A DNA stretch of 64,000 nucleotides from Struthio camelus (taxonomy: Eukaryota; Chordata; Aves; Struthioniformes; Struthionidae), in the NCBI RefSeq assembly GCF_040807025.1, contig NC_090944.1, forward strand, positions 113,708,238 through 113,772,237. The letters run 5' to 3'. Position 1 is the first letter of the stretch. Every line of letters begins with the position of its first letter. Below, in pieces: positions 441 to 63,479 of the stretch. The notes beneath the pieces are model-generated. The model searched no databases and was not told the DNA's origin. It was given only the letters and a program-made list of their open reading frames with translations. The translations under genes and the position numbers were made by a program.

Positions 441-450
441 GGGACTCCCC
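441..450 (+). promoter_or_regulatory. Consensus NF-kB site in the TRAF5 CpG island
   Basis: GGGACTCCCC fits the kB consensus GGGRNWYYCC at every position. With the preceding G it forms the near-palindrome GGGGACTCCCC (440-450). It lies 23 bases before an ISRE-type site. In such GC-rich sequence a chance match is possible. Confidence 0.45.
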
Positions 451-473
451 GGCCCGGCCCCGGGGGTTGCTGC

Positions 474-484
474 GAAACCGAAAG
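474..484 (+). promoter_or_regulatory. ISRE/IRF-type element in the TRAF5 CpG island
   Basis: GAAACCGAAAG has the GAAANNGAAA core bound by interferon regulatory factors. An A-rich motif is conspicuous inside a block that is otherwise nearly all G and C, which makes chance less likely than for the neighbouring kB site. Function is inferred. Confidence 0.45.
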
Positions 485-520
485 CGGCTCCCGGCGGCGG
501 CGCTGGCGCTTCCCCTCGCC

Positions 521-553
<33 letters not shown>
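521..553. repeat. (CCG)11 trinucleotide tract
   Basis: Eleven uninterrupted CCG triplets inside the TRAF5 CpG island, probably in promoter or 5'UTR DNA. GC-rich triplet tracts of this kind often vary in length and can form stable structures. Confidence 0.9.
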
Positions 554-554
<1 letters not shown>

Positions 555-13300: not shown

Positions 13301-13658
13301 TCTTCTGTCCCCAGCTAAATCTATGATAGTTTTAACTTTTTGCAACTAACAGCTGTTGCAAGAAAATTAGGAAAAAAGTCTCTCTTCAGGGGAGTAATTT
13401 TCAGGTTGTAAAATTCTTCCCAAAATGCGTTTTTGTACTGGTCACGTAACGAAGTGTGCATCATTTTGTAGTTCTCTGAGCTTTTTATTGCTCCTCCATA
13501 TTTAATGCTGCATTTCCCTCTGAAATCTGTTGAAACCTTCTGTAAATGAAAATCCTCAAATAACGAGCAGTCTGCTGCAAGCTGTAGCTGAGGTGATTTA
13601 ACCAACTGTAAATATTTAAAAGGCTTCTTTTTGCTTTTGGTTTTCTAGTATAGCTTCC

Positions 13659-13873
13659 ATGGCCTGTGACGAATTTACTGGTCTCTCAGACATCTTCACA
13701 CGCCAAAACTCTGCCAGCGGTGTTTCTCTAGACTTCGAACCCGACGCTGACTACAAGTTTGTCGAAACCCTAGAAGAGCGGTACAAGTGTGCCCACTGCC
13801 ACCTAGTCCTGCACAATCCTCACCAGACGGGATGTGGTCACAGATTTTGCCAGCAATGCATTCTTTCTCTGAG
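13659..13873 (+). CDS. TRAF5: TRAF5 coding exon 1 (start codon and most of the RING finger)
   Basis: Acceptor TTTTCTAG ends at 13648, leaving 10 nt of 5'UTR before the ATG. The exon encodes residues 1-72 (R72 split) through HNPHQTGCGHRFCQQCILSL, supplying six RING ligands. It ends CTGAG|GTTAGT. Open frame continues past the donor to 13925 but is intronic. Confidence 0.96.
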
Positions 13874-16800
13874 GTTAGTACGCATTCCTTCTCTATTTAC
13901 AAACTCCCCTTTCTCCCCTGATTAAAAAGAAGCCAGTACTTTCTATAAGTCAACTCCAAATGCCGTAACAATAGTAACGATTTGGTAAAAAGTGCAGGAG
14001 TCAATGGAAAGACTCTGTTGAACTCGGTCACTGCATACTCAGTGCTTTAAAGATGTCTCTAAAGACCTTACCTGGTGGGGGCAAGGAATATGGGATCACT
14101 TTGGTAATTGCGTAGAAGTCAGAGTAAGGAAATTTTTGCTGTGAACTTAAGCACGACTGAGTCAGATACTGTCTAGCAGCGCATCAAGGCTGTCTGTCTA
14201 TCACTGTACTGTGCAGGTGAGTTTGTTGCATTAAACTCCAATGGTTTTGGCACTGGTGGTTGGATTAAAGCCGTTTGCTTTAGTGTAGCTTCTTTGATTT
14301 TAGTGGAGTTATAAAACTGATGTTTGTATTACCCGATACCACAGTGAGACCACAAGGTCACGGGCATCCATCTGCTTGGGATTTATCTGCCCATGAAATG
14401 TGTTTACCCCGGAGACCTGTCTGGAAATTCATTACGTGTTGTTTGGTGTACCTGAGGTAGAATTTGGCCCAGGAGGACTACAGAGAAGCTTAATTATGTA
14501 GATGGATTTCACGGTTTACTTTTAATGTATTTTAGATGCTTCACGTTAGCCATTTGCTCTTTCAGGGCTGTCTCCCCATGGACACTGCCTCAGTAAGCGT
14601 TTTCTCATACGAGCCATAGGACTTCTGGGAGCTTTTTAAGATAGGAACCGTTTGAACTTATTTTACTGTCATAATAAGGAATGTACGGCTTGCGCTAGAC
14701 AAAGGCCGATCTTAATGCAGACTATGGGATTTTTCCAGATACGACATTTGTGAGCAACAGATGGCCACAGAGTGATAAAGTCCTCTTAATTAAAAAACAT
14801 CCTATTAACATGTGTAGCACAAACTCTGCTTTCTGTTACACTGTTGCAGCTTACTATGCTCTTAGACCTGTGGGCAGAATTTGGCTTTGTAGTTGCTAGA
14901 TCGGTGCGTTTTTGAAGTGCGGTTGGATTCTTATGGTATCCCACATGAGTGGGATATAGACAAGTGACATTCTTTCCATGATTTATTTTTACATCAGTTC
15001 AGGGTATGATCTTCTGTTGATTCATAAAGGAAAATGCCACTTTGACGTGAGTGCAGCAGGTAAGATTTATTTTAGCGTAGCGTTGCAGACGTAAATTAAC
15101 TTGTTATAAAGGTGAGTAAAATGTAGGAAATTAAAGATTTTTCTGCAAATCAAGAACTGGTGACATATTTCTTCTTGTTTGTGCCTACAGGTTCTTATAC
15201 TTGTTATGAATAGGCTGCATAAAGATTATCTGAAAAAGGCACATTGTGTATGGAAAATACGCAGATTATCTAGGGGTTTTGCACAGAACTGTTGTTGAAG
15301 AGTGCGAAAGTAGGATTTTAACGTATTTTCTCATATTGCCTCCTGGAAGCGCTCATGATGCTTGCTTTTTTCCTCACTATCCCCTATATTCAGGATTTTG
15401 TATTTCTCTCATAGATTTTTCACATAGCAAGACTGTTTTCACTTGTATTCTACCTGTCTGGTACTTATGCAAATGCCCAGATACATGTCTTATGAACACT
15501 GAAGGTATGCCTGATTTAGCCTTCTCTTCTATAACTTGTGAGTTCACAGGATGTTTTCTAACCAGGTATATATTTCTTGGATAATTTAACAAACAAGAAT
15601 ATGCATGATTTCAGAAGCTAAGTATCCCTGTGGTATAAAGCATCTGTTGACTTAAATAACAAACGTGTCAACAGATCCGAAAATCAGAGATGCTAAACTT
15701 CAGACTTCAAGATATTACTGACCATTTGAAAGGCTTCATAAAGAAAATCCTCCCCTTTACCCCTTGCAACACTGAAACCGAGCCACATAAATTATGAGAA
15801 TTTTCTCTCTTGATGCTGAAGCATCTAGTACCGACTCCTCCCAGAGTGGGGTTCTAGCAGGGCCCAATTTTGTAAAATAAATCAAGTGTTCTGTGAGCTA
15901 ACATGACTCTTTTTTGATCTAGAGAACTGAATGCAGTACCCACCTGTCCTGTCGACAAAGAAACAATAAAAATGCACGAGGTGAGTGGCTGTAGTTGCAG
16001 TTGCTTCAGCGATCAACATCCGCTTGAAAAAAGGAAGACAGCTAAGAAAAGGTGGCTCTTAGTCTCTTAGTCCTCAGGGGCAGAGCATCTTTTGTCTTCT
16101 GAAACAATGTTAAGGGAAACAGTGTGTTCAGTGATGTTCTGCAAGAAAGAAAGAAAGTATGGATGTATAGCTAAAGCTTTATTTTATACCCCATGTTCTG
16201 AAGTTAAATCATTTTAGTCCTTCGTATTTCCTGTAGAGTGGCCAAGAGTTTCATGGAGTTTTAAATCTTCTTTAGTGCTCAGTGTTTCCTTTAGTGGAGA
16301 ATTTACTTACTTACTGCTTAATCCCCCCGCTTGCTGGGGAAATCTTGTTTGTTTGCCTTTGATTTTGACTGGGCTTTAATTTGCTGCCTTAACTCTTTCC
16401 GATTTACCTCATTAGCCCCGCAGACTTAATTTACTTTTTTGGTAACTATTTGGAGCAAAAGACAAGTTCATGCTTCTTATTTTGTAAGCTACCGAATTTT
16501 TTGGAATGGATTAATTTGTCCTTATTTCTATGCCAAAGCTTGAAAGTATGCTACCTACTTGATCCTACCAGAATGTATTTTCCAGTGACATCGTATATAT
16601 CTCCTTCCTCTTTCTCCTATTCCTGATAGGAAATTGTAGTCTGAATGTCCATGAAGTTGTTGTTTTTCACTCACTCTCTCCTACACTGTGCAAATTTTGA
16701 GTAATGCAACAGTGAACAGCTTTATAATGCTTCTCATAGGAAGGTCTCTAAAGAAGACTGAAAGGTTGCTCTGAGAGCTCAGTTTGCTTCTGCTTACACA

Positions 16801-19800: not shown

Positions 19801-22800
19801 TCGTTGCCTGTTTTAGCTCAACTGCATTTTAAAAGACTACTTTTATCTTCTGTGCGCACCTCAAAAGCCAGAATAAGCCCTTCCAGCGCAGTCAGTCAAT
19901 TAGATGGAAACCCTCCTGTGCTCAGGCACTTACGTTCTCCACCAAGCACAGTGGGAGGCTCGTTGCCACCTCTCACTTCATTTGCTTTCTGCCTTTGCTT
20001 ACAGTGGACAGGAGGTTTGCAGATAGAGCATTTTAAATTTCAGTGCTTGCTGAGATTGCAAGAACACACTGAAGAGGAGCCTTTTAAATGCCCATGTCTT
20101 GCCCTCTGCAGAGACAGGACTAGCTGCTGGCTGTGTCCTCTAGCAGAGCGGATCGCAAGCATTTTTCCTTACATGATCGTTTCCGCTGCTCCCAACAGGT
20201 GACACTGGGCATAGGCCTAATACTGCCGAAGTGAATGCATCCAGCTGATGGTTGACTTACTCTTTTGCTCTTTTATTTTAAACATGAGTGCCCCAAAACG
20301 CAACCATTTGGTGATCTACTGTAGTTCTGGAGTCAGTACTCCTCACTTACGCATGCCTTTTGCTTGTTAGACCCCAGTACAGAAAAAAATATATCTGTAA
20401 GTATACATTCATATATACATATACATACACACAGAAACACACATACACATATATGCGTGCCGGTATCTATACTCCCACAGCAGAGGAGAATGTGTCATCT
20501 TGACAGAGATGAGAGGTATGAGTCTCTCAGTACCTATTACCCCGCAGAGCTGTTAAGAAATATGGCTACCTTATGGCTTTCTTGGGAAATCTCGTCTTTT
20601 TTCCGCCTGGAAATTCTGTCCAGTTAGACTCCAGGAATTTTGCACTTCTACTGGCATTTCTTGACATCTGTCGTCTTGATTATGCTCCAGGGAGCATTAG
20701 CTCCAATGAGTGACGTTGACATCCAGCAATCCTAGACAGCCCTCCTGCGCATGAACACATGCACTACGAGGCTGTTCCCAGGAGATGTCACACCTACTGT
20801 GTACGTGCTGTCAAGCTAAAATCGCATGTGTGCAGTGAGTCCAAAAGGTCCCAAACGCACTGCAAGTCCCGTGCGTGTGCGCTTCCTGTGTGGAAGGTGC
20901 ACAGGGCACCCACGCTAATGGGAGGGCCGCTCCTGGGAGCAGGTGCAGCACATGCCATGGGCTCACATGTTTTTGTCTGGCAGATCCCCAACATAAATAC
21001 AGTAAATGTTCAGGAAAGACTGTTGCACTCTAAGCTCCTGCTTAAATCCAAGTTAACACCGTAGTACAGAGAAGCTTTTAGAAATCTTGCTTTGCAACCT
21101 GGGCAATAATAAGTCAGATTTAAGAGGCAGAGATGTTCAGTACTTACTAGTGCTTTTCCATGAATTTTGAATTAAGTAGTGCTATACATAGTTAAGTTAG
21201 AGCATTTACATGGTAAATGTTTTTTCTTGTGTAGTTGCATACATTTTTATTTGACTGTTGTATATTTTGGCCTACCTGGTGTTTACTCTGCTTTTTTTCC
21301 ATCTGTAGATATCTGACCTGTGTAAGAGTCTGGAATGTAAAGAGATAAAAATCCAACAGCTAGCAGAGGCAGTTAAGAAGTGCGAGAAGGAATTCAGGCA
21401 GTTTACACAGCTGTTTGGAAAAAATAGCAATTTGATGGTAAGCACACAGGTAAGACGTTTCACCTTTCTGGCCAATTGCTTTCTTGCGTCCTGGAATATG
21501 TTTATCCAGTGGTGGTTGTCATTAATATCAGGATGGTAACAAATACTGTCTCCCAAACTCTTCACAAGCTCTTCTTATTTTTTACAATATAATATTATCT
21601 TTTCATTTTATCCAAAAACGAAGTTTGGATATCTGGCTTGGGCAACAAGCACTGAATAAATCCTTCATGACCAGATCCCCATGGCAATTTTGCAGGTGTA
21701 AACTTGAAAAAAAATGGTTGAATGAAGTAATGCAGTGTGAATGGAACTGAATGAGGGTGGTTTCTCAGCGAGTAAATGCTGAATGAACCACGAGGGAGCA
21801 TTTGGAAACATTCCAAAGGCAACCTACACAATATTTTCGCATCTAGCATGTAGTGGATATTGCTGACATATTAAAGACTTCTTTATCTTATTTCAAATGA
21901 AAGACTGATTTTATGAATGTCTCTTGTCTCTGCTTCTCACACTCTTCCAATGGCATTAATTGGGAAGGCTCTTGCCAGTCACCTGGATAAATCTGCACGA
22001 CTGGAGTCACAAGTAAAGCAGTTAATACAAATGGCAAACCAGCAACAAAGTAAATTAGACTTGCGACCGCTGTTTGACACAATTGAAAATGTAAAACAGA
22101 AGATTGCCCTTATGGAGACATACGATCAGCGCTTAGGTATGTTGAGACTTTTGTTTCTTTTCTGCCTGGTTTTAGGATTTTTGTTCACTCAGTAGTGTTC
22201 GCAGAGGCCCTGATGCGATAGTTGGTTAACTGCAGCTCTTAGCTGGTAATCGCTTTCCTGTTCTTGATTTCTAAGAGCGATCGATGGTAGGGAGTGCTCA
22301 ATCCTCCCACCTTCCCTTACGCCTCAATGTTACTTCAGGCCCCAGCTTCTGAACTTCTGTGGCGCTGCAGGGTCAGAGATCTGGGGTTGGTTAGGCCAGT
22401 AGATTGTGATGGTAATAGCACTAGTATCCATAGTCAGGTGTTATTTCTGCCTAATAGTCATTGTTTTTTTCTTATTCAGTTATCAGCTGCGATTACAATA
22501 AAAAATTATCAGCTGTAGCGTATTATTTCCTTCTCCATCTGCTTTCTTGCTTCATGTGCATAATGTGAGCCTTGTAAATTAACAAACATCAGCCTTGTAA
22601 ATTAAATCAACATGTTTGTGAAACTTGTATGTACTTAACCAGAATTACTTGATTGTTTCAGCGGTAACAGTAGCCTTGATACTCAGGGTGGAAGACTGCT
22701 TTCACCTTTCCTTCTACATCACATAATTGCTTGCATTGCAGCCTGTCCTTTTAACCTCTACTTCCAGAGCTCCTTCTGCAAAAGAGTGAGGTAAAAAAGA

Positions 22801-24147
22801 GAGGCTAAGGTTTGGAAGAGAAGTTAATACAATCAGAGAGGAAACCTACTTGTATTCCAGAGGCTGTAAGTTACCTCCTACCCCTGCCCCTAAGAAGACT
22901 CACTGTAAATCAAAGAGCATCTTGTGGGAGGGAGGTAGATCAGTCAGGTAGGATGTGGCTTTCCGCATCAGTTTTTCCAGAGTAGGCCTCTAACATGAAT
23001 CTTTTAAACAGAACAAGCAGCTATTGTAGGTCAGCCTCTGTCCTTTACTGTTACAGGTCCAGCCAGGCTATGTTCTTCTTTTGCTTCCATGGCGTTACTT
23101 TAGGTTCTGATGTGAGTCAGACCCAGATTTGAGCCTGATTTTCACGTGGTTCTTGTTTCAGCCTGATAATGTTAGCATTTTCCAGGATGACACTGTCGTA
23201 AATAACGAGAACATAAATATGTATATCAAATGAGTCCAAATAAAGAACTTCTATAACCTTGGAATCTAGATGCAAGTTTTGCTTCTCAGTGCTGTCTCTA
23301 GGATGGGAGCGTTCAATATACAAATGGAGCTTTTTGATACTGACATTCAAGAGTTTGTCTTGACTCAATCATAATGTCGGCAAAAGGCTGAGTGGAGTGG
23401 CCTGTGCTACCAAGTCAGTTGTCTCTGAAAAGCTCTTGGATGTGATTCCACAGTTTAGTCTTCAGCCTGGGACTTGAGCAATTGAATATGGTCAACTCAA
23501 GTCTGGTTGCTCTTTCTATCCAGGGTTCTGACAGTTTTATTTAACTGAATGTTTCTCTCTTTTCCCCAGTTGTTTTGGAAGGTCAGTCCAACAAGCATGA
23601 TCTCCAGATCAATATTCACAAAGCACAGCTCAATAAAAATGAAGAACGATTTAAGCTTCTGGAAGGCACATGTTACAATGGAAAATTAATCTGGAAAATC
23701 ATGGACTACAAGATGAAGAAGAAAGAAGCAGTGGAAGGCCGTGTCCTCTCTATATTCAGCCAGCCCTTTTACACCAGCCGCTGTGGGTACAGGTTATGTG
23801 CAAGAGCCTATCTGAACGGGGATGGCTCAGGAAAGGGAACACACGTCTCTCTCTACTTTGTAGTGATGAGAGGGGAGTTTGACTCACTGCTACCATGGCC
23901 TTTCAAACAAAAAGTTACACTTATGCTTTTGGACCAAAGTGGGAAAAAAAATCACATTGTGGAAGTCTTCAGAGCTGACCCCAATAGCAGCAGTTTCAAA
24001 AGGCCAGATGGAGAAATGAATATTGCCTCTGGATGTCCACGTTTTGTGCCACACACGGTTCTAGAGAACGCAAAGAATACCTACATCAAGGACGACACTC
24101 TGTTCTTGAAAGTAGTTGTGGATTTAACTGATCTGGAGGAGTTGTGA
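13659..24147 (+). CDS. TRAF5: TRAF5, TNF receptor-associated factor 5 (complete, ten coding exons)
   Basis: Cytoplasmic RING/TRAF adaptor that, from family knowledge, links TNF-receptor-family members (such as CD40, CD27, OX40 and LTBR) to NF-kB and JNK signalling. Joined exons: 13659-13873, 15923-15980, 17237-17338, 18233-18397, 18839-18916, 19299-19373, 19639-19731, 21309-21449, 21968-22136, 23570-24147. The total of 1674 nt gives 557 residues, the length of human TRAF5. Layout: RING at about 44-83 (ligands C44, C47, C59, H61, C64, C67, C80, D83), TRAF zinc fingers at about 100-240, coiled coil at about 245-400, and MATH/TRAF-C domain at about 405-550. The start ATG is in good context (CTTCCATGG) and matches the family N-terminus, with RQNS and SLDFEP motifs shortly after. 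All introns have GT-AG ends except intron 7, which is GC-AG. No frameshift or missing key residue was seen. Confidence 0.97.
15923..15980 (+). CDS. TRAF5: TRAF5 coding exon 2 (end of RING)
   Basis: 58 nt, too short for open-frame detection. Acceptor TTTTTGATCTAG, donor GAG|GTGAGT. It completes R72 and reads ELNAVPTCPVDKETIKMHE, supplying the last RING ligands C80 and D83. Confidence 0.95.
17237..17338 (+). CDS. TRAF5: TRAF5 coding exon 3 (first TRAF zinc-finger segment)
   Basis: 34 whole codons, VFKDNCCKREVLNL through IILGRYQ. Acceptor TTTACAG, donor CAG|GTGAGT. The VFKDNCCKREVLNL segment is the same as in human TRAF5 as I recall it. Confidence 0.96.
18233..18397 (+). CDS. TRAF5: TRAF5 coding exon 4 (TRAF zinc fingers)
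   Basis: 55 whole codons, EHLQQCLFESVQC through KYVLLINIK. Regularly spaced Cys/His pairs of TRAF-type zinc fingers are visible. Acceptor GTTGCAG, donor AAG|GTAAGA. Confidence 0.96.
18839..18916 (+). CDS. TRAF5: TRAF5 coding exon 5 (TRAF zinc finger)
   Basis: 26 whole codons, NHEKDDCPDYPVPC through QIILKKE. Acceptor TTTTTCCTCAG, donor GAG|GTACTA. Confidence 0.95.
19108..19129. other. Perfect 22-base palindrome in TRAF5 intron 6
   Basis: CATTGGCATTG followed immediately by its exact reverse complement. It contains ATTGG and CCAAT ends, TTGGC/GCCAA half-sites and a central ATTGCAAT. It could bind a symmetric dimer or form a cruciform. Confidence 0.8.
19299..19373 (+). CDS. TRAF5: TRAF5 coding exon 6 (TRAF zinc finger)
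   Basis: 25 whole codons, IEKHQTVCPEAEVDCP through GCLVK. Acceptor ATCTGCAG, donor AAG|GTACTG. Confidence 0.95.
19639..19731 (+). CDS. TRAF5: TRAF5 coding exon 7 (last zinc finger to coiled coil; GC donor)
   Basis: 31 whole codons, VKRGKLAEHENGALREH through NSRLEEQ, collinear with the human segment. Acceptor CTCACTAAG. The donor is CAG|GCAAGT, a non-canonical GC site whose other bases fit the donor consensus. The following exon joins in phase only from here. Confidence 0.92.
21309..21449 (+). CDS. TRAF5: TRAF5 coding exon 8 (coiled coil)
   Basis: 47 whole codons, ISDLCKSLECKE through LFGKNSNLMVSTQ. Heptad-like pattern rich in Lys and Glu. The in-phase donor is CAG|GTAAGA at 21450. A competing ATG|GTAAGC lies 13 bases upstream and would shift the frame. 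Confidence 0.93.
21968..22136 (+). CDS. TRAF5: TRAF5 coding exon 9 (coiled coil)
   Basis: 56 codons plus one base, ALASHLDKSARLESQ through TYDQRL. The acceptor is GGGAAG at 21967, after a TC-rich tract. It is an unremarkable site chosen because it gives phase 0 and aligns with human VFASHIDK. Donor TTAG|GTATGT. Confidence 0.88.
23570..24147 (+). CDS. TRAF5: TRAF5 coding exon 10 (MATH/TRAF-C domain and stop)
   Basis: Acceptor TTTTCCCCAG. Encodes VVLEGQSNKHDL, then the whole TRAF-C domain, including GTCYNGKLIWK, YTSRCGYRLCARAYLNGDGS, GEFDSLLPWPF and MNIASGCPRFV, ending DLTDLEEL and TGA. TRAF-C forms the trimeric receptor-tail binding domain. It is the most conserved part of the gene. Confidence 0.98.
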
Positions 24148-26370: not shown

Positions 26371-28490
26371 GGCAAGAGGGAAACAGCGCAGTCTGTATTT
26401 CAGCAAATTAGTAACCCTCTGCCTCCACCACCCCAAATGCAGAAGTGTTAGGAGTATTTAAATGTTTGTGGAGAATTTTGAGCATGACAGGAGCTAAGTA
26501 TTATTAAAACTCCATTTCTAAGTGTTAGAATAGGTGATGGCACTGTGATGTTGCTAAGTGTTTGGTGTGTTCTTGGAGAGATTTTGAAAGCATATTTAAT
26601 TTTAACCAATTCATACTGCAATCGCTCTTCCTCTACTTACCAGCTCGTTTTAGTTTTTTGCCGTGAATAGTCCTTTTAAAATTTTGAAGCACAATGACTC
26701 ATTCCGGGTGATGGAGACATCCCTTTTGAAATACTGCCTGTTTTATAAAGAATTAGTTAAGAAAATTAATTTTTTAAAGACAACTTTATTTAAATTGGTT
26801 CATTTTATTAAAACAGTTGAGAGTTTTATGTTTAGTTTTTCAGAGTTTTTTACTACTGTAAGCTGGATTTTAAATAACATCCCATTCGTAATAAAGAAAA
26901 AATGTTGAATAGCATGAATATTAGGGAAGAAGTTAGATGTTGCATGAAAAACACCAAAAAACTTTTCAATGATACCGTACTGGGTAAGTAACTGAAAGAG
27001 CATACGGTATTCCTACATCAGCACAGTATGTTTTTAATGTATTTATTGACAGATTTGTAGTTGTTGGAATATCTCTTACTACCATACAGACATTTTTCTA
27101 GCCAAATGTCATAACTGTATACATAAAATATGTAAAAATAAATAATATTACCGTATTTCTGCAGTAAGTGTGACATATACTCCTTTAAGCTGAATTTAAA
27201 GAGACTTTTTACAAGAGTGGGGGGTGCTGCATATTTGCATCTGAAATTGTGTTTACAGTCCAAAGAAAACTTTAGGTTAAGAATCAGTATGGTTCATAAA
27301 TATTTTGGTTTGTGCTTTAATGTCCTAAAGCAGTGCACATACAAATTAAGTAAATTCTAAACTAGATCAGACCAGTGATCTCTTAGGTCTGGTATTCTGT
27401 TTCTGATAGCAACAGCTAGCACACTGGATATTTTAGCAGAAGTTTCAACCACAGAATCAAACCAGTATATTATTTTTGTTTGGAACAGATATGCGTTCAG
27501 TTGAGATTGGATTTGCTCCTGTTCAGGCCAGTTACACTATAATTGTTTCCCCTGACCAGCTGATGTTTGAGAACATGGTATTTAAAAATGGGAATGTAAA
27601 ACTTCATGGGGTTATGAGCAAAGTGTTGGAAATCAGCCTGGGAGAAGTGTTAGCGCTGACCCCCTGTTCCTCTGCAAGAGCTCAAGCACCCACTCAGTGC
27701 CAGCGGTTCTCTCAGCTCCGTAAATATGACCTGTGTGGTGCCCAACAGTCAACTTACTTACATCTGCATGCCCAGAGATAAAAGAAAGGCACAAGGTATG
27801 TGTCCCTGTATTCATGTACAGTTAACAGGAGTGCTGGGGAAAGCTTAGGCTAATGGGGCTTGTTGGCAGCAGTAACACCCGGCTCTCCGTGATGGGGGAG
27901 CAGGAATCCAAGCCAGCTAGAGCGGGTCTCTGGGCAGTTGCGAAAGCCTGTGCACTGGGTTGAGTCCTGCTAGGACTTGCGGAGTTGAGCAGCACGGCAT
28001 CACAGTGCAAACGCACGCGTCGTGTGCTGAGAGATGGGGAGGGTGCTCTGCAGATCCTAGGAAGCACGAGCAATAAGCCCTCTTCCAAAGAGGTTCCTCA
28101 CAGGAGTCATTAGTTTCCTGGACAGGTACCCGGAACAAATATTTTTGGGGTTCGTTCTGGGTGAGGTTCAACAAAGGCTTCAAAATAAAAGTTCAGCACC
28201 ATTTTATGGTTGAAGTTAAGGTTGAAGCCAACGTCAGCTTGGATTTGCTTCAACTGTTTCCCGGAAGACACCTGGCCAAGCATGCAATATTGTATACAAA
28301 AGCAGCCTTTTTTTAGGAAGTTAGCGGTAGGAAAGTATATTCACAACCGTCCTTTCATAGCTGCCTGCTCGGCCACATGGCGTTAAGCTCTGACCTGCTG
28401 GACAGAGCTGTGTGGGGCCCTCACCCCCACGTGCCAGGCACGTACCCTTCCCTCTCCACTGCAGACACCCTCCGCGCGCGCAGCCCCTGA
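26371..28490. other. Intergenic region between TRAF5 and the next gene
   Basis: AT-rich with no supported gene. It includes a worn LINE-end fragment at 27362-27450. An open frame at 27476-27781 has no recognisable domain and lacks support. Confidence 0.5.
27362..27450. repeat. Worn LINE-end fragment (L3/CR1-like), copy 1
   Basis: AGATCAGACCAGTGATCTC, then GTATTCTGTTTCTGATAGCA and CAGCTAGCACACTGGAT. This is the same text pattern as 55910-55995 and as the sauropsid repeat remembered as 'GGACCGGTCTGACCGGTCCA ... TATCCTGTCTCTGACAGCAG'. Confidence 0.4.
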
Positions 28491-28499
28491 AGCAGCTCT

Positions 28500-29100
28500 G
28501 GCTTCTTCTTTAATCCAACGTCAAAAGCGAAGGTTGCTCGGCACCTTTGGCCGGCCTCCCCAGCGCCTCGCCTTTCTGCGCGCAGCACAAAGCAATAAAA
28601 CGCAGGCTCCTCGGCGGGGCCCCCAGCTGCGGAGGGGCCTCCGCCTGAAGAGAAAGGGGTTTTTCGGTTTGTTTGCTTGTTTTTGCCTCAAAACGCAGGT
28701 GAAGTGCCGCCAACTTCACGGGCAAAGCGCCGCCTGCCGTTAAACGCCGCGATCCCCCGCGGCACAGCCGGGTAGCGGGAAGCCTTCGCCCCGGCGGCCG
28801 GCTGCCACCAAGCTCGCGTTCAACGCGCGCGCCAACGGCCGTTAACGGCCCTCCCGCCGCCCGACTCCGTCCGGGTCGCTGCGGCGGAAGCGGCGGCGGC
28901 GCCCCCGGGCAGCCCCAGCTCTTCCGGGTGGCCGGCGGGGCCCGGGCGGCGGCTGGGGTGAGTGAGTGAGTGCGGGCCGGGGCCGGGGCCGTGTTTCCCC
29001 CCGCAGGGCGGCGAGCCTGTCCGCAGGCGCAGCGCCGGCCGCGGAGCGGGGCCAGGGCCGGTGCCTCCGCCGCCCTCACGGTCTGTACAGCCCCAAGGGT
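28500..29100 (+). promoter_or_regulatory. CpG island and probable non-coding first exon of the Ser/Lys-rich gene
   Basis: Dense CpG block about 400 bases before the first coding exon of the plus-strand gene at 29452-36363. A perfect donor, GGCTGGG|GTGAGT, ends a likely 5'UTR exon at 28957, and the downstream acceptor is at 29449. Minus-strand open frames across the island are GC-rich artefacts. Confidence 0.65.
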
Positions 29101-29451
29101 TTGGCCTGTAATCGATGAGTAGTGCTAAACGCGAGCCTATAGTCAATTAGTAGTCTTAAATGCAACTTATGTGCTCCCTCCCCCCCCCCCACCCTTCCTC
29201 AAAAGCGACTGTGCTAACTTCTTCACGTTTATGGAAAATCGCACAAATCCAGGGTTTTGGCCTCAGATTCTTGACTTACGAGGTTGAGAGGCTGCACAAG
29301 GGCTGAACTGTTGTGTAAAGCGCATGGTTAGAAATGGCGATGGTGCTGATCTTGCAGAGGTTCTCTGATTTCCTCTATCTCTGCACCAGTCTTTTTCCTT
29401 ACCAAGAGTTTTGGAAATGTGCATTGAACGTACTTTTGTCTCGTACTAGGA

Positions 29452-29521
29452 ATGGATAACAGGAAGGAGGAAAGAAGTAGATCGCTATGTGCAACATCAC
29501 ACGAAGAGCTGAAAGTCCGAG
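29452..29521 (+). CDS. Ser/Lys-rich gene, coding exon 1
   Basis: Acceptor TCGTACTAG ends at 29449; the ATG is two bases into the exon. Encodes MDNRKEERSRSLCATSHEEL and on to VR, with G24 split. Donor CGAG|GTAAGC. Confidence 0.8.
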
Positions 29522-32500
29522 GTAAGCGTTTCTCTGTTGCAATGCTATGGTATTATTTGTATTATCCCTTATGCGTTTGAGTATGACGTTTAGCATGATG
29601 ATATATGATGATATTAGACTATGACACAATGGAAGAGGTCAAAAAGCTTCCTCAAAAATAAGAGTTCATTGTGTTTAACCTCTATGAGGTTAAAGTCACC
29701 ATCGTAGAGCAGCTGTTAGCATGCTTGTCACTGTTGCCTTGTGTTATCCTAAGGAAAAGAAAAAGGGAAACGAAAACGTAGTAGAAACAGATCATCATCA
29801 GTTTCATCCACATCATCTTCTAGTGCTACCGTGTCCTCCACTTCTTCCTCCTCATCACGCTCGTCATCGAGGTCTTCTTCAAGTAGCAGGGGTAAGCTGC
29901 CACTTGTGTACAAGTGGTTTTTACCTGTGTTGAGAGCATTCTTGGAAACATGTAGAGCTTATTTTAAATGTGGCTACGCTGCCACAAAACGATACTACAG
30001 ATTACAAATATTACGTGTTGAGAGTGTTTTCTTACAACCGTTTCCTTTGGTAATGTTAAGGTGCCTCCTTATCCACCATATGCAATGCTCCTGTGTTAAT
30101 TTAAATGTCTTCAGAAATAAAAGCGTCTTATTTTGTTTGAAGAAATGCTACTTTGGTAAGAATATACATAAGTATACGTTTAAAGCTCTGGGTTTTTTTT
30201 TAAGTAAACTGAATACAGATCTTTTTCTACTTCACCTCTTTAGACCAGAGTTAAGGTTTTTGTTTTGGTCTTACTGTGATCTTGAAGTTTCAAACACTTA
30301 AATATAAGGACTTACAAAAGGTATATTAATACAAATAACTGAGTTCAGTGGAAACACATCCAAGTGTTGTAGGATTAAGACTTTCCTATTAAACTGCTGC
30401 TTACTCAGAGGACTTGGAGTAGCTTTGATCTTTTAAAAAAGATAAAATCTGGAAGTAAGTGCAGGTTTTCTGTATGGCTCCAGCTTGTGGCTTCAAGGGA
30501 AACGTATTGCTGATTATATCAAGACTGCATTATTTTGATGTTCTGTTTTGAAATATTTTATATCATTGTAGGTAAAGTGAGCAGATTGCCCTTTTTAAGT
30601 ATAATACATGAGGCTAAACACTGAAGTGTGTTTTTTTTCTTTTTACTGTGATTGGGAGGAAGACTCTATGGACCACAGTTCGCTTGACTACAACTCTTTA
30701 GCTTCAGGGTCAGATGAAGTTTCACTGTGCCATACTGGACCTCATATTTGTGAATATAAATTTTTTGCCATATATAACTAAGATTTTCTAATCTTTCCGT
30801 AATGCAAGGTTATAGATCGATTATTTCTTGGACAGTGCTTCAGGAATCATATATTTGCTAAGATTATCGGCCCAACTGAACCGCATTCACTTGTATACAA
30901 CTCAGTAGAGCTGGAATACCTGTAGTAGAGGAGGAAGAAAAGGGAGTACTTTCTTAATGCCACAGATGAACAAAGACTAAGTTCCACTTCTCTTGAAGTG
31001 GATTTAATGTCTACATGGAAATATTATTTTTTCTTCGTACTTCAGTGACTGATTCAAAGTGTCTGACCGTTATTATTTTCTGAAAATGTTCATACTTGTG
31101 AACTTGTACATTACAAGTTCCTGTCTTTTTGAATTAATTTTATGCCATGTGACATACTCTGAAATTTTTGAAAAGAATTAAAATGTCATGTCAGGCACTG
31201 GCTGTGTGATGATTCTTGGCATGCTTTCTGGCACACTATGTTCTTAGTTTTTGAGACTGTATCATTAGAAATATAATTTTTTAAATTCAACAGCCTCTCT
31301 TTGTTTGTTGTTTTCCAAAGTATATTACTGCATGGTTATAAAGAAAGTTATCAAGCGATGTCCAGAGGGTTAATGGCACACAAAAACAGAAGGGAGGGTT
31401 TTTGTAATGTATAAGCATGCTGTTGAAGCGTTGCACTGATGATGAGCAATACAGAAGATGACTGTCATCTGCTATGATTCTCTTACCCCAACAGTTACTG
31501 TTTGAGATTTTACTTAGCCCTGCCAGCTCTGACAGTTGTCTGGCGTAAAAAATAGCATTTCCATATCCCATTCCAAAACCTTATTTCTGATATTTTGATA
31601 CACCAGCCTTGGACATCTTACTAAAATTTTACATTTTGGCCTCCAACTAGACTAGGCAGAAAAAAACTGAAAAAAGATTGAAAAAAACCCAACAAAATAA
31701 GTCATTCAGAATTTATCAGTCTTTTAGAAGGATGGCAAGAAATATGTTATCTGGGGAAAAAAATCATTCTGAATTAGGCCCAAGTTATCAATTTGCGTGC
31801 TTGAAGATTTGCTAAAACTTCACAGACAAAACATTCCCTAAATTTTCCATTCACAAGGGAGAGAGAAGATCTAGAAAAAATGTCCTACAAGGGCATGTTT
31901 AAACAAGTCAATTTACTCAATTTAGATTGAGAGGAAAAGACATGAGGCAATCAAGTTAAGACAGATATATATCTATGTGTATGTATATTGACGAGGTCTG
32001 ATGTGTCAGCTATAACAAAGTTGGAGTTGACCTTCCTTGGGATAGCAGAATAGAGGTTTCTTCTGTCCTTGTTTTTTATATTATTCTCTTTTCTTATTTA
32101 GAGACTGCAGCTGCAGTTCTGGCTGTTAAGTACTGTAAAAGTATCTGGGAAACCTGAAAGGAGAGTGGGGGAAACTCTTCTGCTTTCTGAGTGATATCCC
32201 CCACCTGCCTTCTCCAAACTTCTTGGTGATGTAGATTGAATGGAAAATAAAGCTGTCTAATTTGAGTGCAGAAGGGACATTGCTGGAAGAAAAGACACTG
32301 GGATATGGAAATTTGACTGCAGCCTAGTAAAGAGGTGGAGCAGGGAAGGGCGTTCTCCTGGGAAGGGAAGGAAGCAGACAGACCAGATGCCAGAATGTGG
32401 AGAGGTGGGATAGCTGAGTTCGGAAACTGAGACTGAACCAGTGAGAAGGCAAGATGGGGAGGGATGCTGACTCAAAAAGAGTGAGCAGGAGGAAAAGTTG

Positions 32501-35500
32501 GTCTGGCTGGGCCAGGAAATCAACAGTTGGGAGCAGGCTGGAAACTAACTGCAGCTGAAGTCTAGAGTAGTTGGTCTGTGGTTCGTCATCATGATGACTG
32601 TGGCTAGGATCATAGCAGATGAAAACTGAGGCTGGAGGAGGTGTGGATGAAGGAATCAAGCTAGGTGAATGGGCAGAAGTGTCTGTGCTCATCACAGTGT
32701 ACTACTTTTCAGAGCCTGGAAGGAAACCCAGCGTTCTTAAATGTGCCCCTTTTCCTGATGTTGGTAAATATTTGTAAAAACCGTCTGGTGAGTTACATCC
32801 TCCCCTTTGGGCTCTTAGTCCAGTCTGTTTCTACCAGGAAACTGAACAGAGTGATACCATTCTCATGGGTTCTTTTGACACCGTTATGTTGCATTTGTTA
32901 TTAGGAGGCCAAAAAAAGCCTTCTTGCTTGTGCAGCCTCACCTTAGACCTTCTTAACTTTTGAGTCTAGCTGTGCTCCTGTATATTCTGTAATTGATCTT
33001 TTGCTTGGAATTTATTGCGAAGAAACTGCAGAGCTTGAAGGCAGTCTGTTGGAATACTAGAAATTGTTTCTCAGTCCCTTTAGGCTTACAGTCCCCATAT
33101 TCAAAGTTAGTGCTTCAGAATCAGCTTCCTCACGTACCAGTGACAGTGTAAGATGTAAAAGGTATGATCAGCTTATAGAATTTGTGGGTTTCTGTTTTAC
33201 AAGGTTTATATCTTGAAGTTGAAAAGTGAGCTAAGTAAGTACAAAAAGGACTTTTTCATCGCCTTAAACAGTGATAATGTTTTCGGTGGCTTGTCAGCCC
33301 CTACAGTACATTTTGGGGACTCCTCTCTGAGTTTGGATCCCTGGTTGTAAAACACTAATGTAAGATGGCGTGTTAGAGAGATTTGTAATCTGTAAAGCAT
33401 AGCTGCAGAAAGAGAAATTCTATCTCTAATATATTGATGTAAGTAATCGCTGCGCAAATCAAGTATTTTCAGTGTCCACGTTAGAACAGTAAGTGGCAGT
33501 AAGTTAATGATGTGTTGCATTTCTCAGGATTACTTTCAGCCAGTGTTTAATATATTTAGCAGAATTAAAGCATTTTCTTCTTATGCACTTCATATAGAAT
33601 CTTTCTTATGTTTTATGTTCTACATACTTTTTCTGTAAAATCAAATCTCTCTTTCAGAATACTAAAATTGCAGGATTTGTTTTTGTTTTTGTTTTTTTTT
33701 AGATTCTCCTAAGTCTAAATCAAAGAAAAAGAAAAAAGAAAAACACAACAAAAAGGTAAACATTTGCTGAGAGGAATAAGTAGTTAACTGAACAGAAAAT
33801 AGATCTTCATAACCTTAAATCTCATGTAAGATTTAATGCTTTTGTCTGTTATGGACATGTCAAACAGGCTTCTGGAGCAATCGCAGATCAACTGATAGGT
33901 AATTTTGCATACAGTTGAGTTTATATTAGAACAGAAATAATTTAAGGTTCCTTTTGCCAGTCTGTAGATTTGTTTCAGCTAGAATTTAGAGCAATCCTCA
34001 AAGAAAAGAGAAATGGGAAACTTGATATTTAAGACAGTATTGTCTGACAGAAATTCGATATAGTCAGTGAAAGAGAGTAATGGACTCTCACTGGTGTAAT
34101 TTTTTTTCGTTTCTATAGGATCTTCTGTTCCAGGTTTTTATACATTTGGAGTACATTAGAATAAGAGATAGAATCAGTGATCATACCATTTTTACTTCTC
34201 AAGAGTCTAAGTCTTGCTAACATTGCTGCGCTACTTTCTGTGTGCTTCAGGTAGTATGCGCTCAGCAGTGGTAAGGGTAAGCACTAGGCGCTGTCTGACT
34301 AGCCAGGGCAGTAAAAGGCTACTCGTGGGTTGCTTTTTTTACCCTTTGCATCTGTAAACAGTTGGGATATATTTCTTATACTTGTAGAAGAGGAAAAAAG
34401 AGAACAAAATGAAGAAAAAGAAAGAAAAGAAGAAAAAGAGAGAGAAAGCGGGACCTGTCCAGCTTTCCAAGGTATGCTGGTGTGCATTATAACATCCCAT
34501 TATATTCCTCATCTACACAATCTGCCCTGTCATAAAAATGTCTGTAACCACATCAATTTTGTCATCAAGAAATGAAAACAGTTTTTAATTTTTTGGACAA
34601 TTGGACAATAACCTTTTATACTTCTTATAACTGTTGTTAAGATTAGTAATGTTTCAGAACAAAGGAAAGCTGATTTCCTTCTAATATGTGGTTTCATTTT
34701 AGTTCTTTAAAAACAAAAAGAAGAATGAAAACTACAGCATGATAACAGGAAAGAAAATAAAGATGAAGATAAAGAAGACTAAGAAGGATAAAGAGGTAAT
34801 GATTGAAAATAGTCCTTACGTCCCAAGGGACAGTCATATCTCTTTTCATATCTCTCTTTTTCTTTTTTCCTTAATATTTGTATTTTTCAGAAGAGTGGAT
34901 CTTATACTTAAGAGTTTTAATTTGAATGTAGCTTTTAATGCGGCTATGGTGCCACCTGAGAAATCTAAATTCATTCTTTTGGGCATATGTTTTGTGATAT
35001 GTGAGTGGGCTTGGAATATTCGGGCATGAATAGATAACCAAGGATGCCTGTGCAGGTCTGCAGAATTAGTTTGTCATGCTTAGCTAATTTGTGTCTTTTC
35101 CCATTGATTAGCTTGCACTGTTTTTAATTGTCCTCCTTTCTTTCCAGTCTCTTGTAATCAGAAGTGGTAGCTGCCGCTTTTGTCTATTTTTATAATGAGA
35201 GTGAGACTAGCTATTATTTAGAGAGGAAGAGAAAAAGATGATAGCGTTAGGACCGCATGCTCATGCATTCTCTCAAAAGCAGTCGGTTTTTTTGCTGATA
35301 TCCTCGGGGAACTGGATATCGTAAATAGCGTTTTGTGCTATTGGTATGGGTATTTAGACTCGGCGCATAAATAATAGGTGTGCTCTTTTCAGCAGTTTCC
35401 ACGCCTTAGAGTGATCTGCAAGAGCGTGTCAGATACTCATCAATATGTGTTAAGTGTTACTTTGAGGTATCCAGTTTGGTGGATTCTGATTCAGCCATAA

Positions 35501-36363
35501 TAATTCATTCTTTAGCTGCCAAAATACACCTGAGCATTCTAAGTTCCATTTAATCAAAGCTATTTTCAGTGGCACTAAAGTTTGTGTTAATTTATGCTGA
35601 ATCCGATTTGCTAGTCCTCCTTGTTATAATTTTTCGATGCCAAAGATGTTGGCCCTTCTTTGCTTGGGTTGGGTGGCCATGGTCGTTAATGTGCTGAATT
35701 GAACAACGTGTTATTCACAGTATTTTAACCTGCAATGGTTCTGTAAATTGTGACTTTAAAACAGTGGAACCAAGTGTTTTGGCTGTTTGGGGCATTTTTT
35801 ATGGTGCTTCTTTGCATCTCATATGATGCCTAGTGGGGCATCTTTAGAAGGTGCCTGAATTCATGATTCCTTTCTATTAATCGACAAGCTGCTGCTCATG
35901 AATAGAAAACCTGAGGCTTCCCAGGACACAAGATTTGCTCTGTGTAGAGTATAAAGAAAGGGATGAAAAAGGTGGCAGACCGGAGAAAGTTGCCTCAGAC
36001 ACCAGAGCAGGCTGAGAGCTACATGTTGACAACCACATGGAGCCTCTGCAGGGAGCCACTTAGAAATACCATGAAATAGTGACAATGACAGCTTGTCTTC
36101 TGTAGCATCTGTCCAGAGTACCCATTGCCTTGCACTTGCTCCAGACGTTCACACCTGTCTAGTAGCTAGTAATACCTAGCCGTTTGAATGCGGTGGCATT
36201 TCTTGTGCCACTTACTGAATTGTGAAAACCCACACAGAAGGCAGGCTTATGCAGCCTTGGCCCATTGAGTACAGGCCTATTGAACCGTTCCCTCTGCTTT
36301 TCTGCTCTACAGAGAGACCGGAACCGTGCCGAGCTCCTTGAGTTTCTGAACTCTGCCTTATGA
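29452..36363 (+). CDS. Unnamed Ser/Lys-rich basic protein gene between TRAF5 and RD3 (complete, six coding exons)
   Basis: I do not recognise this protein. Joined exons: 29452-29521, 29754-29891, 33703-33755, 34388-34471, 34703-34795, 36313-36363. The total of 489 nt gives 162 residues and all phases agree. Layout: acidic/basic N-terminus (MDNRKEERSRSLC, about 1-24); GKRKRSRNR, then a serine-rich tract with interspersed Arg (about 25-70); lysine-rich segments (about 71-108); a non-repetitive motif AGPVQLSKFFKN (about 108-119); a basic stretch with SMITGKKIKMKIKKTKKDKE (about 127-146); and the C-terminus RDRNRAELLEFLNSAL. Composition suggests a nuclear, RNA- or chromatin-associated protein, loosely like FAM133 or ARL6IP4 in style, but I claim no homology. 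Start choice: first ATG of exon 29450-29521, with G at +4. Syntenically it sits where human has LINC00467. Confidence 0.82.
29754..29891 (+). CDS. Ser/Lys-rich gene, coding exon 2 (polyserine tract)
   Basis: Acceptor ATCCTAAG, donor AGGG|GTAAGC. Encodes KEKGKRKRSRNR followed by a long Ser/Thr run with spaced Arg. The serine codons are mixed (TCA, TCT, TCC, AGT, AGC), so the run is maintained as protein rather than being a simple DNA repeat. Confidence 0.82.
29892..33702 (+). other. Intron 2 of the Ser/Lys-rich gene
   Basis: AT-rich, 3.8 kb. GT at 29892 and AG at 33702 after a long T-rich tract. A purine-rich stretch at 32160-32700 may be an old repeat. No coding sequence recognised. Confidence 0.7.
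33703..33755 (+). CDS. Ser/Lys-rich gene, coding exon 3
   Basis: 53 nt with a strong polypyrimidine acceptor. Completes D and reads SPKSKSKKKKKEKHNKK. Donor AAG|GTAAAC. Confidence 0.8.
34388..34471 (+). CDS. Ser/Lys-rich gene, coding exon 4
   Basis: 28 whole codons, KRKKENKMKKKK through KAGPVQLSK. Acceptor TACTTGTAG, donor AAG|GTATGC. A second frame (EEEKREQNEEKE...) is also open here, but it meets a stop at the start of the next exon, so the lysine frame is chosen. Confidence 0.8.
34703..34795 (+). CDS. Ser/Lys-rich gene, coding exon 5
   Basis: 31 whole codons, FFKNKKKNENYSMITGKKIK through KTKKDKE. Acceptor CATTTTAG, donor GAG|GTAATG. Confidence 0.82.
36313..36363 (+). CDS. Ser/Lys-rich gene, last coding exon
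   Basis: Acceptor CTGCTCTACAG at 36312. 17 codons, RDRNRAELLEFLNSAL and TGA. The amphipathic, non-repetitive C-terminus joins in phase and argues for a real coding exon. Confidence 0.75.
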   Translation, partial: RDRNRAELLEFLNSAL

Positions 36364-39300
36364 TGGAGAAAGTGCTGACCAAGGACTTGCAAATCTACCA
36401 AGCCAACAATCATCATGCCTCGTAAAACCCTAAAGGGAAACTCAGGGAAAAGGGCACCAAGTTGGACAAGACCAGACTCTCCTGCTGTGAAGACAATCAG
36501 GATGTCCTTTTTAATGGCAGAACGAAGAGTAACTAATACCTTGTTAGTGAAAGATCCATGTCCTCCTTTTGAGATCCTAAGGTAATAGCCAGGCTGTGAT
36601 ATTTTAAAAGAGCGTAAGAGTGTGTCATTGACAATGATAAGAAATGATACACTGAGGTCCAATTATGTAATCCGTACCGTAGCTGCATGCAGAATGCACT
36701 CATAATTTCAAATGTCTTAATGTTTCTAGTAGCTTAAGTGAAGCGAAGTATTTGTAAATGTTTATTTGAAAGATGAGGCATTTCTATATGTATATATTTT
36801 TTTTTTCCACTAGTAGTTTTACTTGTCCTAAAGAGCAAGCTGACCTTTGTAAATAGAACATACTTTTAAATAGATGATTCTTTGACAGTTCATTCATTAA
36901 TATATTATTTTCTTTCATAGTTTGAGATATGATCCTTCTCTGGACAGTTTATTGCTCTATATCACTAGAAAGTGTAACAGTAAAATATTCTGGAGTAATA
37001 GAGGTAGCTGAATATTTTTATCTTGAAATAGGAGCAGGAAAGGTGTTTGGTTTTGTTTGCTTATCTGGATCAGCTGTTCAAAGGCAGCATGCACTCCCAA
37101 TAGTTTGCCACCATGCCTGCAGTTGCTGATACCAGGGCTAAAAACATTGGAGATCTGGCCTGCCTTTCTGATCCTGTGAGCTGTGTTTCAAATCTTCCTC
37201 TGTCTGAGGAGCCTCAAAACATACCACGTATCTTAGCCTAAAAGAGCCATAAGAGTGATCCAGAGGCAGGTAGTGGCAGTGAACCTCTAAGTGTGCTGCT
37301 AGTCCACTGTAAGAGGAGACTGGTCTAGATATGTAGCTGGACCTGAACATAACGTGAGCGTGTGTGTTAGCCTTGGTAGTTCACTCACTGCTCGCCCACC
37401 CTTGAATTTTGAATACCCAACAGGCACCTCTTTTTGAGTATGTGACATAACCCCGATGTGGGAAGTCTGCTTGAATTGCTTGTGTAGCAAGTGCTCCTCA
37501 AGAACTACGGTTTAGGTACACCTAAAAAGAATAATTGATTTTCGTGAGAACATTGGGTTTACAGTGGTCAGAGTGTGGGGAGTTTGTTAAAGAGCAAACA
37601 AAAAGAAAACTCTTTGTATCTGTGTCTACTTGAGTGTTTTGGGTAGATCTGAAGATGCACGCCACTGTTCAAGGGATAATTTTTAAACTACTTGATGTGT
37701 GAAACCTTCTGAAAATGCCAAAAGGCTGTCTTTTCTGTAGTTTTTGTTGCAAAACATTTTTTTAATTGTTGCAGAGATGTAACTCTTTAGAGACTAAGAC
37801 CCTGATTCCCAAGAGCACGAGCTTATGTTCTTCCTTGATTCATGAAAAGATATAGGTAAAAACTGGAGTTTCCTTGACTTTTATAACCTTGTGATGGAAA
37901 CATTTTTTGGAAGCACTGTTGAAAAACAAAAAGAGCCCCGAGCTCCTCCTTTGCTTCATCGGATCATGCTTTCGTTCTTGCTACTTTGGTATCTTGTATC
38001 TAGAGATGCCAAAATATTTTGCCCAGATAAGCAATCAGCTTTTGTCTCTTGGCTTCTCTTAACAAGCTTAATTCCAAACACGCTCTTATAAGATATCAAC
38101 ATCCTTGCCATTCCATAGGTTACGTTATAGGTAAAGCTAGTATTATTTCCTGGACAAAGGAGAAAAAAGTGCAGCAAGATGGGAGCTAGTCCAGACGCAA
38201 ATAGGAAATGGGAAATCCAGAAATCTCACTTTATGAAGAACTTCATTGGTTAGAAGGTTCAAACTTAATTGAAATAATCTGCTTTTTGCTGTCTTACTCA
38301 GAATCAGTCTGGCTTGTGAAATCTTGCGAAAACTCCTGCAGTATTGGGCTAGTAGGGAAAAGGCAAAGGACCTTTAGTAACCTTTGGTAACATGATGTGG
38401 TTTGTTCTTCCTTTAGTTTAGGTTTTTGGTACTTGCCCACTCTGACTGTACAAAAATGAGTCAGACCCCTTTTTCTTAAGGGAAAAAAATTGAGAAACTT
38501 TTATTTGCTGTTTTGGAGCAGAGGAATTTTACCTGTTTGATTTATACGTTCTGAGTATGCCTTTGTCATGCTTTGAAGTATTTCTGTGTTAGGTTTTATT
38601 TTTAAGCTAGCGTTTCTGTTAGAAAATCAAGCTTCAACTTCTGTTGCTGTAACCTATTTTTTTTCTTTCCCGTCCAAAAAGGTCTGAGTGCTGACTGAAG
38701 CTTCCCTATGGTTGTTGCTTCTATAAACCTCCTTTTCTTTCCTACCCTTCTTCATGTGAATTTTGGGTGTCTAAAGAGGTTGGAGTTCACATTGCCTCCT
38801 TCCTTCCCCATCCTTTGCCAGAAGCACAGAGATCCCGCAGGGCTGCTATGCATGCAGCTTGGTGGGACTATAGTACCTTTGAGATTGCTGGTTGGTACTG
38901 GCCAGTAGGTTCCAGCATCACTAGTAGGGATAGGCCCATACAGCCAGAGTAATTGTACACACCTTGTCTCCTCAGGAAAGAATTTCCCTTGGGTTGCCCC
39001 TTTAACTAAAGAATAGCTTCCTAATACTGCTTCAAGTTATTGTTGCAGCTGGTAGAGACTGAAGCAGATGAGATGATGATTGTAAGGTAAGAGATGTAGA
39101 GGAATCTGATGAAATACAGTTCTAGAAAATTATATGAGGGAAGCATGTAATTACATGAGGGAAGCATGTGGCAGTACCAGATGTCGACGTGATATACAAA
39201 TAGATGATAGAGAGCCTTGTTACCAGGGCTCAGAAAAGCAGGTGTCATGGGGGAAGATGAGAGGATCGAAAAACAGAAAAATCATGAGATATGGATGGAT

Positions 39301-46850: not shown

Positions 46851-54276
<7,426 letters not shown>

Positions 54277-61324: not shown

Positions 61325-63479
61325 AACAGATTTCCTTCACTGAAAATAAATAAACAAACAAATAAAAGAGCTGTGTCGGTTAACTCCAGATAAAAATCCA
61401 GGCTACAGATCTTGAAGGAAAAGTGAACGAACAGCCCAAGAGCCTAGAGCTCTCGTTATGGCTGGAACTCTCTACAGAAGATAATCTTCCTGTTATCTGC
61501 AGAAGCAAAAGGGTGGGTGGTTTTCAAATCTGCTTACATAGCACAGTGGCTTTTTACAGTTTGCCTACTTATCAGAGCAAATAAGTTCCATCTGCTGAGC
61601 ACCAGGACTACTTCTATGCCAAATTCCCACTCATGTTTTAAGCAATAAATATTTTCTAATATCAACCATAAAAATATCGTATAAGAGTTACACTAGATTG
61701 TTAGTTAAACCTGCCAAAGCCAGGAAGTTAAAATACACACTGATTTGCTGTTTTTTGCTCAGACAAGGCTACCTTGCTGGTGGTACATCAAGCACACCTT
61801 CAATACTATAGCCTAGTTTGCTCTCTACAGACTGCAAAGTCAGGCTTTCAGTGGTATATAGGGACCTAAAGTATTCTTCATCAGTCATGTAAATGAGAGA
61901 TCCCAGGTAATATAGGCACAGAGCTTTCCTGTTACTAAAACTACACAAACCACAAAATGCTACCATAAAGCAACAGTAAGCATCTGATGCAAGTCTCCAA
62001 CACAAAATGATTTCAAAATTAAAACTCGGGGAGCTCCGCAGCTCACTTTTTTCTATTATACAATTCCTGTAATATACTCTGTTATTAAAGGGGCAATGAT
62101 GCCACAAACTCTGGAGTTTCCAATATTGCCATTCACAGTAGATACTTATATCTGCAGAATTAAGTGAAGCACGAGCTTGAAACTCAGACCCAAAAGCACA
62201 TTATCAACAGTTGTCAGGTCCACTAAAGTATTTCTTATGTATATATTGTGGCACAGACGAGACTAAGTTCTGTGAAAATGGATAGGACTGATTCTGCTGC
62301 GAAAGCGAGAGTAACTCGTAAGGTGAGAATCCATTTTAACAGATGCCTGTATGTTTCTTCTGTTCAGTACTGAATCTTGGTTACAGTATCTATCAGAAGG
62401 AGTAGTTACTGGAGAGCTTCAAAGTTGCAGTCTCAGTTGACAGGAGAACTATTAACCTATGTGGGAGTTGTGCCCGTATTGGGGAATACTAGGATCAGGG
62501 TTGAAATTTGATCCTTGTGACAGGAGTTACTTAAAAATACACTTTTTTTTTAAATTAGCCCTCATAAGAAGAATGCTAGACTTACAGTATGAAAACTTAA
62601 GCCACTCTTCATAGAGATCACAAACAGCGTAGGGAGCAACAGGCAGAGCTCTGGGAAACCTCGCGCTTCTCTTCTGCAACAGCTGTGCGACCCACCTACG
62701 GCCCGTCCGCAGGCAGCGGCCATCCAAGGAGCCACCAGCGCTGCTGCTGCCTTGAGCCAGACCTTAATTAACGTGGTAGCACTAAGGGATGTAAAGGTGC
62801 AGTCTGTTCTCACTCACACCGCCATAGATCCAAAGCTACCTGACTGGCCTTAGCGGGACCACTCGGGGGTTACTGAATTCTGGACTTCAGCCCTCAGAAA
62901 CGCTTAGTGGGGCAGGTGTCAGATCTGAAACAAGCAGCACAAGCCCTACCTTCCTCCTAATTTCCTTTTCTTTACGTAACCAGTCACCCAGTGCTAAGCC
63001 CCCGAGCTCGGACAGCCGTCTGCGCGCCCCGGCCCCCCGCCGTGCCCACTCACCCCGCTCACCTTGGGCAGCCGCGCACCCGCTGCTCGTGCAGACGGAC
63101 GGACAGACGGACCCACACCAGCGCTAGTGACCAGGGCACCAGAGAGAGGGCCTGGCTTGAAGTCAAGCCCTCGAAACTGGCACGGCAAACTTAAACCCGC
63201 GTTTGGATATGGATTAGCCCTGGTGACCAGCATTTAAAGGGATAACAGCTGAGCTTACAGCAGATTTTCCTTCGAGCTATCGGGGCTCGGTCTGGTACCT
63301 CTAAGACATATAACAGCCTGTCAAGAAGGTGACGCCCATTGACTTGGCCGGATTCAGTATCTGTTTAAAAATCCCACACACACCCCCCCAAAAAAAAGCA
63401 AAAAACTGAGAACTTTGTGGGGTGTTCAAACCTGAAGCCGAGCACATTCCCCGAGGAGATGAACGCGTTGTACTGAACT

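Follow-up and report, generated by a model that had tools for sequence, protein, structure and literature searches.

A probable Lys- and Ser-rich protein gene between TRAF5 and RD3 of Struthio camelus, in the interval of human LINC00467

Four exons out of the six in a candidate gene of the Struthio camelus genome show a bias towards in-frame codons; this gene is located on the plus strand between TRAF5 and RD3 and is probably protein-coding. The preferred reading, to which as a whole we assign a probability of roughly 0.72, is a real, CpG-island-driven six-exon gene, encoding a 162-residue, highly basic, mostly disordered nuclear RNA-associated protein.

The locus and the predicted gene

The window, i.e., the whole 64-kb stretch of DNA that was analyzed, is part of a 148-Mb contig in the S. 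camelus genome (1.45 Gb, 262 contigs). The following features were found in it.

23545..24147, plus strand: last coding exon of TRAF5 (containing ORF), the upstream neighbour; TRAF5 4gjh, E 7e-108, and Pfam TRAF/MATH
28400..29200, no strand: CpG island, presumed promoter; GC 0.62-0.80 and CpG observed/expected 0.76-1.01 in 200-base steps
28768..28957, plus strand: possible non-coding first exon, with an arbitrary start and only the 3' end supported (donor GTGAGT directly after 28957, 9.6 bits)
29452..29521, plus strand: coding exon 1 (the exon begins at 29450), ATG, residues 1-23 plus one base; GT-AG borders and open frame
29754..29891, plus strand: coding exon 2, Ser/Arg-rich; TCN 21/21 and AGN/CGN 11/17 in frame
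33703..33755, plus strand: coding exon 3, Lys-rich; AAG in frame 4/5
34388..34471, plus strand: coding exon 4, Lys-rich; AAG in frame 7/10 and the top purine content among 590 splice-bounded plus-strand segments
34703..34795, plus strand: coding exon 5, Lys-rich; AAG in frame 9/10
36313..36363, plus strand: terminal coding exon, C-terminus RDRNRAELLEFLNSAL and TGA; acceptor and open frame
46851..54276, minus strand: RD3 coding exons, the downstream neighbour, in the ORFs 53821-54276 and 46851-47177; Pfam RD3, E 3.6e-40 and 9.7e-07, and 6drf, E 5.3e-33

The flanking genes are certainly TRAF5 and RD3, and the Pfam search additionally detected the TRAF 2/3/5 RING in the ORF 13620-13925 (plus strand). 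An earlier sequence-only reading of this DNA had placed the candidate gene between these two genes on the plus strand, in agreement with the TRAF5 exons detected on the plus strand and the RD3 exons on the minus strand. Rfam searched at gathering scores gave 0 matches within the 64-kb window. GC-rich blocks were observed at window positions 1-2000 (GC 0.62) and 62001-64000 (GC 0.57), and they may be promoters, one for TRAF5 and the other for RD3 or the gene that follows. A stop-free minus-strand stretch of 299 residues (window 11051-11950) matched no Pfam family at E <= 1.

The six exons proposed by the same reading, with their borders, phases, strand (29452-36363, plus) and product, were all reproduced. 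The coding sequence of 70+138+53+84+93+51 = 489 nt encodes 162 amino acids followed by TGA, and the translation bears out the description of a basic Ser/Lys-rich protein (Lys 43, Ser 34, Arg 16 and Glu 13 of the 162 residues). The claim of well-formed splice sites is upheld by GT-AG borders in five of the five introns (232, 3811, 632, 231 and 1517 bases), though the donors GTAAAC and GTAATG do not have G at +5. The frame of exon 2 also runs open for 182 residues into the next intron (window 29753-30301, plus strand), and retention of the intron after exon 2 would lead to a different protein end.

The CpG island at 28.4-29.2 kb would be the promoter, and the ATG of the candidate gene is located about 0.25 kb past its end. 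The sequence scan detected no ATG in 28700-28957, and joining the presumed first exon to the chain produces the start context GGCTGGGGAATGG, with G at -3 and +4. The splice weights used here, in the donor PWM and in the spliced-ORF search, were entered by hand. Downstream of the stop codon, the first AATAAA is at 40114, while the variants AGTAAA and ATTAAA are at 36979 and 39960, respectively (8.6 kb scanned).

Codon bias and other tests of coding potential

For the shuffle test, the splice sites set the frame, and 3000 dinucleotide shuffles were drawn on condition that this frame stayed open; shuffles still closed after 400 tries would be retained, and the mean number of tries was at most 36. 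The triplet classes tested in exons 3-5 were four: AAG, AAA, GAA/GAG and stops. AAG is in frame in 20 of 25 cases in exons 3-5, a count reached by 0 of the 3000 shuffles, where the in-frame AAG averages 8.2 with a maximum of 18. Exon 2 contains 32 in-frame Ser and Arg codons, drawn from both codon boxes, and 0/3000 shuffles match this number. Taken by themselves, the AGN and CGN codons of exon 2, which could not come from a TCN repeat, are in frame in 11 of 17 cases, a number reached by 26/3000 shuffles. The total codon-position periodicity of the chain additionally exceeded that of 1000 out of 1000 single-base shuffles.

Four of the six exons are within the nine most purine-rich entries of the 590 splice-bounded plus-strand segments of the window. 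In a control set of 31 open, purine-rich segments, each with four or more AAG triplets, all three Lys-rich exons came within the top seven, the segments 21309-21449 (plus strand) and 29830-29940 (minus strand, opposite the Ser exon) are also high, and exon 1 ranked below 25th. None of the 21 stop triplets in exons 3-5 is in frame (0/9 in exon 5, the frame of which is open in 2.3% of shuffles) and the product of the six open-frame chances under shuffling is 1.3e-4, open frames being the original selection criterion.

No in-frame excess was found in exons 3-5 for AAA (17/45) or GAA/GAG (6/27). AAG is in frame in 1/5 cases in exon 1 and 0/3 in exon 2, and exon 6, which contains no AAG, has no independent codon support. 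Exons 1 and 6 being without codon support, the two ends of the gene are less sure than its middle.

The in-phase chain had been offered by the sequence-only reading as evidence by itself, and this argument fails, since the best chain of the opposite strand outscores that of the plus strand at all three penalties; in-phase splicing was rejected as proof of coding. The dynamic-programming spliced-ORF search of 29300-36700 returned chains longer than the claimed one, with the best scores of 79.8 (plus) versus 109.6 (minus) at the lowest penalty. The plus chain scoring 79.8 is not the claimed chain; it shares exactly 29452-29521 and 34388-34471 with it and differs elsewhere. The codon-position chi-square showed no preference for the claimed phases, which rank 134 of 243 phase combinations, and this failure may be because the Ser-rich and the Lys-rich exons differ in position preferences. 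The codon-usage score, built on a hand-entered human codon table, ranked exons 1-5 in the claimed frames at 236, 3453, 607, 310 and 832 among 4556 segment-frames. Once overlapping entries were dropped from the list, RD3, TRAF-C and TRAF5 RING stretches occupied places 6 and 9, 16 and 24.

Relatives and proposed role of the protein

The Pfam search detected no family at the cut-off for the 162-residue product. The search of the whole protein against its own genome gave 70 matches at E up to 10, with 150 of 506 candidates scored, so that a weaker relative could be missed. Among the scored candidates, the top hit away from the locus itself (E 0.004) is an exon on contig C17, belonging to a gene that Pfam assigns to SR-25 (E 1.6e-22 and 1.9e-26). 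In SR-25 (Pfam PF10500), which we take to be the gene ARL6IP4, a Ser run precedes a Lys run, a layout in common with the candidate protein; the likeness is one of composition rather than demonstrated descent, and the SR-25 gene on C17 is separate and distinct from the candidate gene. The gathering score of PF10500 was not reached by the query with one extra Lys (7.8 bits versus 40, profile positions 28-118 of 226), and with the exact 162-residue sequence PF10500 was absent at E <= 1. The match of the whole protein on contig C28 was rejected as low-complexity sequence with stops.

The C-terminal 56 amino acids were searched separately. In the own genome they matched exon 5 (E 2e-10) and exon 6 (E 0.88), followed by the next place at E 3.3, and no second copy was found there, the match being convincing at the own locus only. 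PDB sequences contained no relative of these 56 residues (three matches at E up to 10, the best at E 1.1). By tblastn, no relative was confirmed among 263 pattern stretches in the prokaryotic genome_contigs or among 79 pattern stretches in viral_contigs, both of weak scope for this protein.

The spliced DNA gave 51 matches in the own genome, namely the six exons and 45 places elsewhere, and this search found no retrocopy, which would have corroborated the splicing. The 45 matches outside the locus correspond to query positions 225-329, the A/G-rich stretch of exons 3-4, at 72-82% identity. We also observed a tandem array, C7:44395465-44914116, close to one end of its contig (44.97 Mb); its repeat unit is about 12.7 kb long, and the query matched 35 places in it, while the small contigs C182 and C235 have one match each at matching scores. 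Two adjoining units of the array are 99.8% identical over 9463 bases, and one unit contains a 409-aa Arg/Ser/Lys-rich ORF, for which no Pfam family was found at E <= 0.01.

The function and disorder of the candidate protein are suggested by its composition alone. Transcription would start from the CpG-island promoter and the six coding exons would be spliced, probably after a non-coding first exon. The long Lys/Arg runs may direct the protein to the nucleus or nucleolus and mediate RNA binding, the Ser/Arg-rich block of exon 2 may be tuned by phosphorylation in the manner of SR-like proteins, and the C-terminal DRNRAELLEFLNSAL could form a short helix docking on a partner. The role would be that of an accessory factor associated with RNA in the nucleus, similar in action to SR-25 but not itself an SR-25. 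We expect this gene to be present already in automatically generated annotations of bird genomes.

Relation to human LINC00467 and alternative readings

The candidate gene is flanked by TRAF5 and RD3 and has the orientation of TRAF5, as would be expected of an ortholog of LINC00467. TRAF5 is presumably the upstream neighbour of LINC00467 in human as well. The sequence-only reading had equated the interval and the strand with those of human LINC00467 (C1orf97), and published coordinates agree with this: LINC00467 is reported at chr1:211,382,736-211,444,093 (PMC9198549), on the forward strand (PMC9563794), with RD3 immediately downstream (PMC3929584). LINC00467 is treated as a lncRNA, while it has been reported to encode a 94-aa peptide, ASAP (PMC11499885), for which a mitochondrial location and binding to ATP synthase subunits were described (PMC8649637), in contrast to the 162 aa in S. 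camelus. Polysome association of LINC00467 and overexpression of a frame in it were reported in prostate cancer cells (PMC9634437), and one listed horse transcript resembles bonobo C1orf97 (PMC3726457). The human promoter fragment was described as Sp1-site-enriched and extends into intron 1 (PMC3929584).

According to Hezroni et al. 2017 (PMC5577775), protein genes that disappeared before mammals gave rise to some lncRNAs; there a coding gene outside mammals is set against a syntenic mammalian lncRNA, as the candidate gene would be here. The main text of that paper names neither LINC00467 nor C1orf97, and in the passages of open-licence literature covered, no paper was found that connects LINC00467 with a protein gene of birds or reptiles. 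The part of the sequence-only reading concerning the LINC00467 position thus stands in so far as a spliced plus-strand coding gene is likely from the codon bias and the slot and strand match, while the descent of the human RNA from it, i.e., a coding ancestor that decayed in human, is a hypothesis based on position. In its fullest form this hypothesis states that the gene is the intact coding ancestor of LINC00467, a small nuclear Lys/Ser-rich vertebrate protein lost in mammals, the promoter and transcription of which survived as a cancer-linked lncRNA, with the peptide as a remnant or a new frame; we regard this form as somewhat unlikely.

Three alternatives concerning the human gene are compatible with the preferred reading. 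Descent of LINC00467 from a protein gene, in which the promoter and some exons persist and the frame decayed or was replaced, appears possible and is proposed tentatively: the interval and strand are equal, the Sp1-site-enriched human promoter fragment (PMC3929584) is compatible with a CpG-island promoter here, and such an origin is reported for other lncRNAs in the work of Hezroni et al. (PMC5577775), but LINC00467 and C1orf97 are not among the names in its main text, and the match here is one of position. It is quite improbable that the human gene still encodes a shortened ortholog, as ASAP or another LINC00467 frame. The 94-aa peptide (PMC11499885) and the C1orf97-like horse transcript (PMC3726457) point in this direction, but a mitochondrial peptide bound to ATP synthase subunits (PMC8649637) does not correspond to a Lys-rich protein of likely nuclear fate. 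A sauropsid-specific or LINC00467-unrelated coding gene, with an independent origin of the human RNA at a comparable position, is rather unlikely in our estimation; the C-terminal 56 residues are without a relative in PDB, genome_contigs, viral_contigs and the own genome, a weak argument as no other vertebrate genome is among them, but the equal interval and orientation speak for a relationship.

The remaining alternative concerns the preferred reading itself, and proposes that no protein gene is present and a lncRNA, or nothing, lies here, the Lys and Ser runs being no more than a translation of A/G-rich and TC-rich simple sequence. The better spliced-ORF score of the opposite strand, the unsupportive phase test and codon-usage ranking, and the resemblance of the exon 3-4 stretch to A/G-rich DNA at other places in the genome are consistent with such an explanation, but the in-frame AAG bias and the use of both Ser/Arg codon boxes, in phases set by the splice sites, argue against it, and we consider it unlikely.

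Many cancer studies deal with LINC00467 as a non-coding RNA, and it is studied as a peptide source too. The candidate gene has the interval next to RD3 and the plus strand in common with it, and a coding counterpart outside mammals would provide a direct way to separate a decayed protein, a surviving protein and a true RNA function.
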